Shown here: positions 41,949 to 59,206 of the stretch, one piece after another
How the letters are laid out: every line of letters starts with the position of its first letter
Position numbering within the stretch: the first letter of the stretch is position 1
Source: Phaeodactylum tricornutum CCAP 1055/1
Taxonomy: Eukaryota > Bacillariophyta > Bacillariophyceae > Surirellales > Neidiaceae
NCBI RefSeq assembly: GCF_000150955.2
Contig: NC_011678.1
Span: forward strand, 887,518 to 951,517
DNA: 64,000 bases
Reading direction: 5' to 3'
Position numbers and translations under genes: made by a program
The notes under the pieces: model-generated
The model's database searches: none
The model's input: only the letters and a program-made list of their open reading frames with translations
What the model was told of the DNA's origin: nothing

Positions 41949-44222
41949 TTAAAGAAACCAAGGCGCGTCTTCTTCGATAATTTTGCGGTCCAACTTTTTC
42001 GTCTTGGCAATGACAAATTCACGAGGCCGATTGGAGTCGACCAATGCTACACGGCAATCTAGTCGAATATGCCGCACTGGACGTCCGTTAATTGTCATAC
42101 TACAGTCGCTGTCAGCCGCAGGCTCATCGCAGTACTCCAGAGAAATGTCCTCTTGGTCGGCAAAAACTTTGACTTTGCGTTCGGGTCCGCATGCCGCTTG
42201 GACCTGTTAATTGTGAACATACATTGCCGAGCAAGAGAAAGAAAGTGAGAGCTAGGCATCAGCGACTTTGGTCACGATGGAACCAGCGCTATTGCAAACG
42301 TACCGCATTCTCCGCCAACATGAGCTGCCAGAACTTTCCGCCCACCGCATCAACAGCCAAGTGAGCCGATACCCATTGAAAAGCACCCGCCAAAATAGAT
42401 TGTACTCCGCGCTCACCCCAGCAGCCCGCTCTCCATACAATTGTGTGCAGACCACTGCGCTCGCCTAAATGTTTCATGACATCGATCGGTTCGCTTCCGT
42501 CCAGCAATTCGACAATAACACCCATTTCCTCCAGGTTACGTTTCAAAGCTTGTGATTTAAGAAGTTCATCCTGAATTTGCTTTGTAGACTCCTCCGCATT
42601 CTTTTGCCATTGAATTGCTGCTTCCGCTGCCTTGGCCGCATCTCCGGTCTCGATGGCGGCCGCCGCCGCTGCGGCCGCTTCGGCGGCTGCTTTAGCCGCT
42701 GCAGCTGCAGCATCGGCAGCAGCTCGAGCCTGAGCTTCGTTTCCCCGACGCAACAATACACGGGTAGGCTTGCGGTGGTTAGCTCGCCAAAACTTTTCAA
42801 TATCCACGTGGTTCGGTAAATCCGGTCCACCATTTTTCAGTGGGAGTTCTTTCAGATCGGTGGCGTCCATGACAACGATACGCTCCACGCCGGCGGGGAG
42901 ATCACATCCGTGCGTCGCCAACCATTTTAACCCACTCAAACGAGCAGCCAAGGAACCATCATCGCTGGGACCGTTCCCTTGTTTGGGGAACGTTGCTACT
43001 ACCGCGTCGGCTTGCTCGTACCATGGCATCATCGGAGTTCCACTCATGTCTCCCTGAAAGTCCTCATCTTCGAATTCGACCGACAAAAATTCTTCGTCGT
43101 CAAAGTCATCATCGTCGCCATCATCAGCCCAGATGACTTCGGGAGGCGGAGCGATTTCGTATGCTCCAAACTTCCGGAAACTCAGATTCTGGCCACCGAA
43201 CTTGGTACCGAAAGCGTTACCCTGACGAGCAAACGCTTCGATATTGTCCGAATCCACCACCGAACAGTGTAAAAATCCGAGAGGTCGTCCAAACAAGTTG
43301 AAATGTGTGCGTGCCATTTTATGGAGCTTGCTGTTCGCGAGCTGAGCATAGGCCACGATCAGATTTTCGCACTCTTCTTCCAATACCGATCCCATGCGGA
43401 CTTCGATGCCCGCAGAGTGCAAGGCGGCGGCACCCTTGGAATGTCGTTCCTGGATCGGGTCGGCACATCCAATGACGACACGAGGAATACCAACGAGCTC
43501 GATCAGCTGTGTTATAGGAGGAAGGGCCGTACCTTCCCGCTCGGACGATGGTTCCAAGGTCACGTACAAAGTACTGGTTTCCAGATCTTTTCGTAGCTGT
43601 TCCGAGGAAGGCCAGGAGACGCACCACTCAGATAATGGTGTTACTTCAAGACCCGCCTGTGCAATCGCAGCCCGAACGGCATCGTTTCTAAAATCACTCC
43701 GTGCCTTTCCGAGGATACGTCCGTCGTCGGCCACCAGAACAGCACCGACAGTCGGCTTGGGGAACGCCGACGCAACACCACGTTCTCCTCCACTGTACCA
43801 GCATAAGAAGAAATATACGAAAGAGGAGTCAATGAGCCAAGGCACGGAAAGCAACACCTATGGATATTTGGTCACAGAACGTACGCTGTTTCAGCCTCGA
43901 GAATAGCGCTAAGCATGTATTCTTCGTCCTGCCGAAATTGCTCTTCCGTGACGGGAACGGGATCGGCAATATGTGTTAGTACCGTCATTTCCCTGTCGGA
44001 AAAAGGCAGCTTTTGCTGCTTCGTGTCTTTCTCTATCTCCATTTCGCCGCCAAAGGTATTTTCGAGCAGGCTACCGCCAGGGCGATGAAATCTGCTCGGC
44101 CTTTCCAGCGTCCGCTGAGACAACACGGTCGATCTGCGCTGCCCCGGGACAAACGCATCCGACAAGAGGCAGGAAAGCGCCCAAAAGACGTGCACACACA
44201 GCCATTTTTGTGCGAGCATCAT
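41949..44222 (-). CDS. Plastid-targeted RibD-like protein with degenerate deaminase centre
   Basis: Three exons: 44222-43885, 43792-42304 and 42203-41949. Phases agree at both GTACGT introns, and the product is about 693 residues. Exon 3 was found from its reading frame and splice sites. The N-terminus 'ALSCLLSDAFVPGQRR' is a plastid import signal with the ASAFAP-type cut before Phe. The RibD/CDA fold is evident in 'FPKPTVGAVLVADDGRILGKA', 'STLYVTLEPSSEREGTALPP' and 'GIPRVVIGCADP'. The zinc ligands are gone: HAE is replaced by NDAV, the first Cys by Ser, and the last Cys of PPC is absent. Plant PYRR also has an inactive deaminase domain. The remaining part is hard to match to the RibD reductase. 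It holds an Ala-rich helix (about residues 450-490) and acidic insertions. Whether it keeps reductase activity in riboflavin synthesis is unknown. Confidence 0.75.
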
Positions 44223-54721: not shown

Positions 54722-57093
54722 TTACTGCGTTTCGATTCCGAGATTTCTGCGAACATTATGAGCAGCTGCAACCATGTGCTTCAAGGCCAAGATCGTCTCT
54801 GGCCACCCTCGCGTCTTTAAACCACAATCGGGGTTGACGACGGTGTGCTCGACGTCAAGAACCTTCAAAAAACTGCTGAGTTTTTCGTACATGATGTCGA
54901 TTGGTGGGACAACAGGTGAATGAATGTCGTACAAGCCAGGGCCAAAACCTTTTTCGTATCCGACGCGCTGAAAGGCTTCTAAGGTCGCGTTGTCACTGCG
55001 TGCGTTCTCGATTGAGTTTACGTCCGTGTCGAGCCTATCAATTGCTTCCATACAGTCGTTAAACTCACAGTAACACATGTGAGTGTGAATCTGTGTCTCG
55101 CTCGCAGCAACCGCAGTTGCCAGGCGAAAGGCGTCAACAGACCACGTCAAATACTCTTCCTTTTGGGCGGTTCGGAGTGGCATTCCCTCACGAAGAGCAG
55201 GCTCGTCCACCTGAATGACCTTGCAGCCAGCACTTTCCAGATCAGCTACTTCATCCCGAATAGCAAGAGCAAGTTGGTACGCTTGCTCTTTGCGAGACAC
55301 GTCGACACGAGGGAAAGACCAATTCAGAATAGTAATTGGACCAGTCAGCATGCCTTTCACCGGTTTTGACGTTAAATCCTGGGCAACCTTGAACTCGCGC
55401 ACTGTCATCGCCTTAGGTCGCTGAATATCTGACCAGATAATAGGAGGACGGACGCAACGAGAGCCGAATGACTGGACCCACCCATGTTCCGAAAAGAGAA
55501 TTCCCTCCATTTGTTGACCAAAGAACTCAACCATGTCCGTCCGTTCAGGCTCACCATGCACCAAGATATCTATGCCGATAGCTTCCTGGATACCAATACA
55601 GTAAGCAATGTGCTGGTCCATGGCCCTCTCGTACGCCTCGTTGGTCAGCCTACCCTTTTTCCATTCCCATCGAAGTCGCCGGATTTCGCTGGTTTGTGGG
55701 AAGGATCCAATAGTGGTCGTGGGTAGGAGTGGTACGCCGACCAATTGCTTCGGACGGCGTTGCTTGTACGGCTCGGGACGGCGAAAATCAGTCTCTTTCA
55801 AGTGCTTGATTCGTTCCTTCGTCAAAGTAGAGCCCGTATGGGCAGAGTGGAAGGTGGTCCAAGCTGCCGTATGCGTATCGAGTGCTGACTTCTCACCCGA
55901 TATTGCCTGCGCTAGAAGCACCAGTTCGTCTAACTTTTGCTTTGCAAAGGAGAGAACCTGAGCTGCCGGGTGGTTGTCCAATTGCATTTCACGATCCAAG
56001 TCCCAAGGAGTGTATTGTAAAGATGTAGAAGGTTGTACACGAAACTCAATCCCTAGAGACTTCAGCTTGTCGGTGAGCGGAAGGACTTTACCGGGGTCGA
56101 CCTTCCAAACATTGCGAGCGTCAACGAGGCCCGCGCCAAGCATCTTAGAGGAGGGAAATCCTCGCTTTTCGATCAATCCAAGTGTATTTCCACGGGTGAA
56201 GTCCATCGAAAGGATGTTAAGTCCGTTCGACTCCGAGATAAGCCAATCATAATTAGCTTTCCCTACATCGTCCATAGCGGTAACGAAATTAATCTTCGGG
56301 CCTTTCGGCAGGATGGCTGGATAAACGGTCTTCAAAGAGGCGATAAGCCCAACTTCTTCGAGGACGATTGCAGGTTCATGAATCTGAATTTCTTTCACTC
56401 CCAGATCGGCAACCTTCTGCAGAAGAGTTTTGTACACAGGAATCAACAAAGCAATCAACTCATGCGTGGTCAGAGCGTCGTCGACGATGCGCGCAAAAAA
56501 GCAGATGGAAACGGGTCCCAACACAACAGGTATGGCGCATTCAGCTCCGAGAACCCCGACGCCTCGCTCAACACTGGAAATGAAGGAGGAAAAGTCAGGC
56601 GCAATCTTAGATGACTTGTCGAACTCAGGAACCATGTAGTGGTAGTTGCTCGTGATCCATTTTTTCATGCCTATTCACATTAGCACAACATGGAAAAGAA
56701 AGAGGCTTGTTAGGAGGATTCTCGTGTCGAATGGATAATATGAGGCGAATCAAGAAAGAGCATCTTACTTAGAGCTTCGGCACCGTCAACACCTCGAGCC
56801 ATGGAAAACATACGCGTCGTCCCAGCCGCCAAATTCTCGAAGCGATGAGGCACTATTCCCAGCGACTCAATCCAAAACAAAACACAATCGTAGAGGTACA
56901 TATCACCCACTGTGATCAGGTCGATACCGGCTTCCTTCTGAAGCTTCCAACCCATAGTCTCAACATCTTCGCTAACCTTGATAAGATCCACTTCACTCAG
57001 CGATCCTTTCCAATGCTTTTCCAGAGCAAACTTGAGCTCGCGATTCGGCCCCATCCGAGGGAATCCAAGCGTAGCGGTGGTTGTGATTTTCAT
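54722..57093 (-). CDS. METE: Cobalamin-independent methionine synthase METE
   Basis: Two exons, 57093-56769 and 56670-54722; the join gives 'GAEALSMKKWITSNYHYMVPEF' and a product of 757 residues, the normal size for MetE. It methylates homocysteine with 5-methyl-tetrahydrofolate without B12. The N-terminal domain begins 'TTTATLGFPRMGPNRELKFALEKHWKG'. The C-terminal catalytic barrel carries zinc ligands in 'QIHTHMCYCEFND' (His and Cys) and in 'VVNPDCGLKTRGW' (Cys). 'YDIHSPVVPP' is another signature. The exon 1 donor is a GTAAGA. The ATG at 57093 was chosen because family similarity starts there; an ATG at 57147 lies upstream. In P. tricornutum, METE expression is known to fall when vitamin B12 is supplied. 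Its upstream region has a repeated motif (57212-57580). Confidence 0.95.
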
Positions 57094-57211
57094 TGTTGAT
57101 CGAGATAGCTTTTTGGAAGTTTGACGGCTGGCATAAAGCTCTATCAAAATTTATGGACGTGTCACAAAAGATCTGCTGCAATTTTGCATTACAGTTCATT
57201 CACTGGTCTAT

Positions 57212-57230
57212 GAAGAACGTGCTTTGAACT
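57212..57230 (-). promoter_or_regulatory. METE promoter motif copy 1 (GAAGAACGTGCTTTGAACT)
   Basis: Closest copy to METE, about 120 bp upstream of its ATG. The core is ACGTGCTTTG on the plus strand, read as CAAAGCACGT towards METE. An ACGT core suits bZIP or bHLH factors. Confidence 0.55.
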
Positions 57231-57342
57231 GATATTGAGCTCCCCGAAATGACACCTATAAAAACGACAGCGTCAGGGAGCAGCTCTAGTAGAGTGCATT
57301 CGAGATCGTGCGTGCCTCAGCCCTCTGAAACTACATTTCTGT

Positions 57343-57358
57343 AGAACGTGCTTTGTGA
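57343..57358 (-). promoter_or_regulatory. METE promoter motif copy 2 (AGAACGTGCTTTGTGA)
   Basis: Shares AGAACGTGCTTTG with copy 1, a 13-base identity, at 129 bp spacing. Confidence 0.55.
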
Positions 57359-57471
57359 TATCCTTGGACGGCAGCGGCCAGGTGGATGGCCCAATGAACC
57401 CGTACACCGCAAAAAGGCTAGTATGCATGTGCTTCATTCAGCAAACGGAAGTGGCTCTTGAAACAACCTTA

Positions 57472-57491
57472 GCGAAGAACGTGATTTGAAC
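57472..57491 (-). promoter_or_regulatory. METE promoter motif copy 3 (GCGAAGAACGTGATTTGAAC)
   Basis: Matches copy 1 over GAAGAACGTGxTTTGAAC with one core mismatch. Confidence 0.5.
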
Positions 57492-57563
57492 ATGTTCTCT
57501 TTTTCCAATTGGCGTCATGCGTAAAACACGACTAACCGTATTTTTCCATTCCGGAGATATCGG

Positions 57564-57580
57564 GAAGCACGTGTTTTGCC
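57564..57580 (-). promoter_or_regulatory. METE promoter motif copy 4 (GAAGCACGTGTTTTGCC)
   Basis: The most diverged copy. It contains a full CACGTG E-box/G-box. Confidence 0.42.
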
Positions 57581-57739
57581 GTTCCGATGGCGCGAATTTT
57601 ACATTTCTCAGTCACTGTGACCTCGGACAAAATGTTTATCCAGTAAGTCCTGGGTCTGTCCCGGCGAAGGCCCATTAAACTTCGTGTCGTTTTCGAATTA
57701 GATAGCTAAGACCCTTACTCAAAGAGATCGACAAGGGTG

Positions 57740-59206
57740 CTATCGGTCAATGCACTCAGTTATTCGGAGTAATTCGGTCTCTAGCTCAACAGCTTTGCAG
57801 GGAAATGGCTTCATTATGAAATAATTCGCGCCGGCTCCAGTAAAAGCTTGCTGTAGGTCGTTCGCGGATAGCCCGCAGACGATGGAGTTTACTCGTCGCG
57901 AACGGAGTTCTCGAACTGTCTCAGTTCCAGTTAGCTGCCGATCGGTACTAGTCATGTATTGATCCATAAAGATTAGATCAAACGACTCACCGCAAGTAAT
58001 CAGCTGGAGGACGGTCTCGCCACTAGCAGCTTCTCGGATTGACCAATCTGGAGCTATTTTGCTAATAGATCGAGACGCAAGTTTTCGAAGGATCCTCTCG
58101 TCATCAACGATCAGCACCGAAAGTTTCGCAGGGAGTGTCCGCGTCTTCTCGATCCTTTTGTCATTGCATTCATCCGCCGAGGCACACAAAGTTTCCAATT
58201 CTGGATTGTCCGAACCTGAACTTTCAATAGGAGGTTTGCGTAGATTGATGACAATCCGGGTACCATCCCCCCCAGCATGTCCACTGATGTAAGATTCGTC
58301 CAGAAATATTGATCCACCCATCAAATCAACGAGTTCCTTGCAAAGATTTAGACCAATCCCAGTTCCTTGACTCAAAGAATCCAAGCTCTCCTGGAAGCGG
58401 CAGAAAAGGTCTTTCCGCTTACCCATTGGAATCGACGGCCCAGAGTCTTCAACATAGATGCAAACATCATCACCAACGCATGTAGCTCGAAGTCGTACAA
58501 ACCCTTGACCGACAAACTTTGCAGCGTTGCGGCCCAAATTTAAGACCACTTGCTGTAGTCGAAGTCTGTCTGCGCACACAACTAAATTCTCGTCGCAGGC
58601 AAGAAGCACTTGAAAATTGTCACTGAAACGCTGCACCAAATCCGGCCGATCACAGACACCAGTGACATTTCGATGAGTGAAAGACGAGTCGACGAACGGC
58701 AAAGAATTGTTTTCGAACGCTGGTCCGATCTCTTCGGGCAAAGTTTGAAAGATTTCAAGCTGATTGACAAACTGAGCCATAGAGAAAAGAGGTAGAATCG
58801 CTTGATGGAGCTGATCGGAGAACCACTGCCCTTTTTCAGCTGCAGCGCGCAACACTTCGCTGCGAATGTCTTCTTCTTCTGAACGGGCCAGCATGAAGGT
58901 CAGAGCAAAGCCGCATGCGCACAACGAGAGGAATACAATAGTGGGAACTACCAAAGTTGCTGGACTTCTCGAGATCAGATGGATATGATGCTGCGCCCAT
59001 TTCTTGGTCAGAATCCAACATCCTAAGAACGGTATCCGCGTAGATGTCCCAGAGCGTCTTACTGGGCTTGTTTCCGGACACACCTCTTTGCCGTTTTCGG
59101 TGGGTTGTGTGGTACGAGTTAAAAAAGTGGACGTTCCAATCTTGCCACAGGATGAAGTCACCGACGAGGATAATTCCGACAATGGAAGATCGCGTTGCAG
59201 TTTCAT
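57740..59206 (-). CDS. Hybrid histidine-kinase-like protein lacking a visible HisKA domain
   Basis: Single exon, 488 residues. One membrane helix spans about residues 84-107 ('LVVPTIVFLSLCACGFALTFML'). The following 85 residues look like the start of an extracytosolic sensor (CHASE-like, 'EEEDIRSEVLRAAAEKGQWFSDQLHQAI'). This ends abruptly near residue 193 and passes straight into an HATPase_c domain: 'CADRLRLQQVVLNLGRNAAKFV' (N box), 'YVEDSGPSIP' (G1, degenerate) and 'GTGIGLNLCKELVDLMGG' (G2). Residues 362-485 are a receiver domain ('SVLIVDDER', phospho-Asp in 'DLIFMDQYM', Lys in 'NYFIMKPF'). A second membrane helix and the dimerisation/phospho-acceptor helices with the H-box, expected between sensor and HATPase, are not seen. 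It may have lost that segment by deletion, or act without a His acceptor. Both ends look intact. Confidence 0.8.
   Translation of the reverse strand: MKLQRDLPLSELSSSVTSSCGKIGTSTFLTRTTQPTENGKEVCPETSPVRRSGTSTRIPFLGCWILTKKWAQHHIHLISRSPATLVVPTIVFLSLCACGFALTFMLARSEEEDIRSEVLRAAAEKGQWFSDQLHQAILPLFSMAQFVNQLEIFQTLPEEIGPAFENNSLPFVDSSFTHRNVTGVCDRPDLVQRFSDNFQVLLACDENLVVCADRLRLQQVVLNLGRNAAKFVGQGFVRLRATCVGDDVCIYVEDSGPSIPMGKRKDLFCRFQESLDSLSQGTGIGLNLCKELVDLMGGSIFLDESYISGHAGGDGTRIVINLRKPPIESSGSDNPELETLCASADECNDKRIEKTRTLPAKLSVLIVDDERILRKLASRSISKIAPDWSIREAASGETVLQLITCGESFDLIFMDQYMTSTDRQLTGTETVRELRSRRVNSIVCGLSANDLQQAFTGAGANYFIMKPFPCKAVELETELLRITECIDR

Follow-up and report, generated by a model that had tools for sequence, protein, structure and literature searches.

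The promoter of the METE gene of Phaeodactylum tricornutum contains four copies of a motif with an ACGT core, and the locus raises the question of what these repeats do. Vitamin B12 is reported to lower METE transcripts by 97% and those of THIC by about two thirds (PMC9544697), and the initial annotation of this DNA had proposed that the repeats mediate this repression. The repeats themselves have already been published by Hickland et al. (2025; PMC12538271). The present analysis makes three modest additions, namely exact coordinates, evidence that METE is the sole genomic cluster of the 15-mer pattern drawn from it, and a GTP cyclohydrolase I gene as a candidate target. It was performed on a window of 64,000 nucleotides, the whole stretch of DNA analysed, and on the genome.

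The features of the locus, in window coordinates, are as follows.

54722..56668, minus strand: METE exon 2 (rest of Meth_synt_1 and Meth_synt_2), counted from its first ATG; the 5' boundary is approximate
56776..57093, minus strand: METE exon 1 (first part of Meth_synt_1), with the ATG at 57093 and an approximate 3' splice boundary
57094..57739, minus strand: intergenic region upstream of METE, comprising its promoter and 5'UTR
57212-57229, plus strand: motif copy 1, GAAGAACGTGCTTTGAAC, the sole complete copy within the published 242-bp promoter
57341-57358, plus strand: motif copy 2, GTAGAACGTGCTTTGTGA, which together with copy 1 is contained in the 359-bp construct
57474-57491, plus strand: motif copy 3, GAAGAACGTGATTTGAAC, identical to copy 1 at 17 of 18 positions
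57564-57581, plus strand: motif copy 4, GAAGCACGTGTTTTGCCG, the only copy of the four with a full CACGTG core
57740..59206, minus strand: upstream neighbour with histidine-kinase ATPase and response-regulator domains, in the same direction as METE

The surroundings of the promoter are as the initial annotation had described them. Both flanking genes are on the minus strand, METE with its ATG at 57093 and the next gene with its 3' end at 57740, facing the METE promoter. Gene order and intron count agree with the published P. tricornutum locus. The published 674-bp METE fragment, counted from the ATG at 57093, would end at 57767. Comparison of METE exon 2 with genome contigs revealed at least 80 loci, with bacterial titles throughout among the matches listed, and comparison with viral contigs revealed a single locus (L070), which is apparently bacterial judging by its genes and has no motif site at two or fewer mismatches. 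Exon 1 gave nine matches in phage records, each less than 60% identical.

All four copies announced in the initial annotation were found within a few bases of its coordinates, and the 13 identical bases it had noted in copies 1 and 2 proved to be AGAACGTGCTTTG. The repeated unit is 18 nt long and of the GAAGAACGTGCTTTGAAC type. The copies are co-oriented on the plus strand, antisense to METE, and successive copies are 129, 133 and 90 bp apart. All four contain ACGTG, which in copies 1-3 is part of AACGTG without the full palindrome. The exact 12-mer GAACGTGCTTTG occurs in copies 1 and 2 only; copy 3 differs from it by one base and copy 4, the most divergent (72%), by two. The sequences flanking the four copies mostly have little in common, with 3 to 13 of 30 positions alike, which fits maintained binding sites better than recent duplication.

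The published motif is 14 nt long and was obtained by MEME from the THIC promoters of six diatoms (PMC12538271). According to the same paper, it was then found in five of six other B12-regulated promoters and was absent from eight genes unaffected by B12. The MEME E-value of 670 indicates that the motif rested on few sequences. CBA1, THIC and SHMT1 are among the published motif-bearing promoters, as are METE of F. kerguelensis and, with four copies, METE of P. tricornutum. The repeats described here share with this motif the promoter, the copy number and the counts in truncated constructs, but they fit the printed degenerate string GAAKYACGTKCWKC (consensus GAAGCACGTGCTTC) only with mismatches, namely 1, 2, 1 and 2 in copies 1-4 in the best orientation, and none is an exact match. 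The likeness also extends further than the published 14 nt, reaching 18 nt in copies 1 and 3.

Constructs of 674, 359 and 242 bp are reported to carry four, two and one copies (PMC12538271), and the same numbers of complete copies are obtained from the coordinates given here. The shortest construct is given in that paper as both 242 and 259 bp; a length of 259 bp from the METE ATG would reach 57352, within copy 2, and either length contains one complete copy. Truncation to 359 and 242 bp is reported to lower expression to about 25% and 10%, respectively, with B12 repression remaining complete (PMC12538271), although other sequence is lost together with the copies, which confounds copy number with expression. 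When both copies of the 359-bp promoter were scrambled, expression was lost with and without B12 alike, so B12 control is unreadable in the scrambled promoter. An FCPA promoter given one copy was about 2.3 times as strong and did not respond to B12. The need of the motif for expression and its enhancer effect have thus been demonstrated in print (PMC12538271); copies 3 and 4 were tested there by truncation only.

Taken together, the scrambling, FCPA and truncation results indicate that the METE repeats are activator sites and not on their own the repressive element; the idea of repression is supported only in part. In the explanation we favour, with a probability of roughly 0.87, the four repeats are the sites of a sequence-specific transcriptional activator that sets the very high expression of METE without B12, while repression by B12 operates via the proximal 242 bp. 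The four copies would act together in setting the level of expression. Repression would then work in one of two ways: at copy 1, as placed in the native promoter, B12 may silence the activator itself or a co-activator; alternatively, a separate proximal element may carry the repression. A dimeric protein of the bHLH or bZIP class that recognises the ACGTG core is the probable activator; the authors of PMC12538271 likewise propose an activator of one of these two classes. Three bHLH matches at E <= 0.001 are present in the genome. The sequences partly resemble the G-box or E-box (CACGTG) of bHLH and bZIP proteins, as judged from ACGTG in all four copies and the full CACGTG in copy 4 and in sites upstream of CBA1, THIC and GTP cyclohydrolase I; METE copies 1-3 differ in having AACGTG instead of the full palindrome. 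The repeats enhance a very strong diatom promoter that can be tuned by B12, which makes them relevant for algal engineering, and they bear on how algae respond when a vitamin is scarce in the sea.

Compatible with activator sites at METE, rather than exclusive of them, is the idea that the motif is the common mark of METE, CBA1, THIC and GTP cyclohydrolase I, a small regulon for B12, folate and thiamine-pyrimidine functions that would be co-activated when the supply of B12 or methyl groups is low. The chances of this are close to even, though slightly below. The pattern GAAGMACGTGHTTY has 13 exact sites in the 27.45 Mb genome, compared with three for the backwards control. Three of these are METE copies, copy 2 being off by one mismatch, and a single site is found at each of CBA1, THIC and GTP cyclohydrolase I. 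The THIC site is located 237 bp ahead of the first Met of the THIC frame. The CBA1 site is 248 bp ahead of the first Met of a frame identified as CBA1 by its FFNxE and WFE residues and by a fatty-acid desaturase neighbour; Phatr3_J29488, the published gene upstream of CBA1, is presumably a desaturase. Both groups of residues are named for CBA1 in PMC10828217.

The third site outside METE is the following.

G000:C14:623562-623575 (L047 1501-1514; L151 2587): exact GAAGCACGTGATTC upstream of GTP cyclohydrolase I, a perfect match

This site lies 213 nt ahead of an open frame that is the single match to the GTP cyclohydrolase I family in the genome (Pfam E 5.4e-73). The gene lies at about 622476-623006 of G000:C14. 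No clear start codon was apparent: Met first occurs in the frame at residue 114, and the ATG at position 1712 on the reverse strand of L047 belongs to another frame. In the CBA1, THIC and GTP cyclohydrolase I sites CACGTG is embedded in TCACGTG, and three of the four exact genomic sites of the 14-mer GAAGCACGTGATTC are at these genes. The published string GAAKYACGTKCWKC, which was used untuned, has seven exact sites in the genome (control, four). THIC, CBA1 and GTP cyclohydrolase I account for three of them and METE for none; two others, both on C5, are in open frames, and the last two, on C8 and C13, stand beside open frames. No mention of GTP cyclohydrolase I as a target of the motif was found in the literature searched, and the main text of PMC12538271 contains none of the words folate, cyclohydrolase, GCH and genome-wide.

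Altered folate metabolism has been reported in B12-deprived diatoms (PMC3476827), in line with such a regulon. Against it, the remaining seven GAAGMACGTGHTTY sites have no evident link to these genes. Five are in open frames, encoding PHD-finger, Bestrophin-like, VASt and Tex-like proteins and, at C17, a 139-aa product, although an open frame is a weak criterion here, the THIC and CBA1 sites being likewise spanned by stop-to-stop frames. The other two are in a duplicated region of C14. Also unfavourable is the absence of good sites at both MTHFR loci, one of which (L152) has no ACGT-bearing site at three or fewer mismatches and the other (L153) two sites with three mismatches. At the three SHMT loci, each a candidate for SHMT1, there is no clear upstream site: the best ones have two, two and four mismatches to GAAKYACGTKCWKC, and of the two with two mismatches one lacks the ACGT core and the other is far upstream. 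Of the published occurrences, those upstream of CBA1 and THIC were recovered here, but clear confirmation of the one at SHMT1 was not obtained. A METE-type site with two mismatches at an SHMT locus was rejected, as it falls in a coding frame. The palindrome at two or fewer mismatches is not enriched genome-wide either, with 135 places compared with 147 for the backwards control (270 and 294 counting both strands). Another loose genome scan, with 135 matches against 104 in the control, was uninformative.

The two C14 sites are identical copies of GAAGCACGTGTTTC in the mirrored halves of the duplicated region (L045 and L046; G000:C14:143850 and 151610). The one in L045 is about 215 bp before an open frame of a protein without a Pfam match.

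In fungi, Cbf1-Met4-Met28 activates methionine genes via TCACGTG, and these genes are shut off by a metabolite signal. The proposed diatom regulon would be much like the fungal one in its action on methionine genes, and the TCACGTG within the CBA1, THIC and GTP cyclohydrolase I sites suggests a resemblance between the two; the signal reported for METE in the diatom is, however, B12. A more specific form of the proposal, which we put forward tentatively and at somewhat less than even odds, is a compact diatom regulon in which METE, CBA1, THIC and GTP cyclohydrolase I are under one G-box-type activator and METE is the strongest member through multiplication of its site to four. Such a regulon would link methionine synthesis independent of B12 (METE) with the uptake of B12 (CBA1), the synthesis of the thiamine pyrimidine (THIC) and the first step towards folate (GTP cyclohydrolase I). 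If true, GTP cyclohydrolase I as a target would place folate synthesis under the same control as METE, CBA1 and THIC.

The proposal of the initial annotation, that the repeats are themselves the elements of B12 repression, would require either a B12-controlled repressor or an activator inactivated by B12 to bind them. It is in agreement with the occurrence of the motif ahead of three genes that B12 lowers, METE, CBA1 and THIC, and with the presence of copy 1 in the 242-bp stretch sufficient for repression. However, the single copy on the FCPA promoter did not make it responsive to B12, and repression is not weakened when copies are lost by truncation (PMC12538271), which makes this explanation unlikely. 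The FCPA test weakens a repression role for the repeats in general, but copy 1 may have one in its native setting, given that it lies within the sufficient 242 bp.

The remaining explanation, a product of chance or duplication, was addressed with 300 dinucleotide shuffles of the METE promoter, at word lengths of 12, 13, 14 and 15 with up to 2, 2, 3 and 3 mismatches, respectively. The same-strand family of four was matched in one shuffle for 12-mers and in none for the three longer words. With both strands counted, the observed number (four, or five for 14-mers) was matched in seven shuffles for 12-mers and again in none for the others. In the real window, a same-strand family of four 14-mers with up to three mismatches occurs in two of 197 half-overlapping tiles of 646 bp. 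The tile other than the METE promoter is 42314-42959.

The frequency of the exact 12-mer GAACGTGCTTTG in the genome is ordinary (nine sites, two of them in the METE promoter, compared with nine for the backwards control), and the unusual feature is clustering at METE. Three of the four exact genomic sites of the 15-mer GAAGMACGTGHTTTG, and four of its 44 sites at one or no mismatch (control, 32), are in the METE promoter; this pattern was drawn from METE itself, so its METE counts are not independent, and the genome counts are lower bounds. The four METE sites start within 352 bp of each other, whereas elsewhere the nearest pair among the 44 sites is 11,347 bp apart. METE is thus the single cluster of the 15-mer pattern in the genome among the 44 sites listed. 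Copies 2 and 3 are parts of a longer 30-nt block (57326-57355 and 57459-57488) that is 77% alike, and one of them may come from a local duplication. Despite this block and the second tile with a family of four, a chance or duplication product without function is highly improbable given the shuffles and the lack of a second cluster, and for copies 1 and 2 taken together it is refuted by the published loss of expression on scrambling (PMC12538271).

Several minor features of the METE promoter were also observed. At 57422-57435 on the minus strand, GAAGCACATGCATA has two mismatches to the published string, equal to copies 2 and 4, and no ACGT. The sequence GATATTGAGC is found near METE copy 1 and near the CBA1 site; it was considered as a second element beside these sites and rejected, as the two occurrences are in opposite orientations and the match is likely due to chance. 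An inverted 17-nt match (82%) that includes GATATC links 57346-57362 with 57556-57572, at copies 2 and 4. Finally, a fifth ACGTG (GGACGTGTCAC), which outside its core is unlike the four METE copies, is located at 57157-57161, 63 bp before the METE ATG and within the 242 bp that retain B12 repression.
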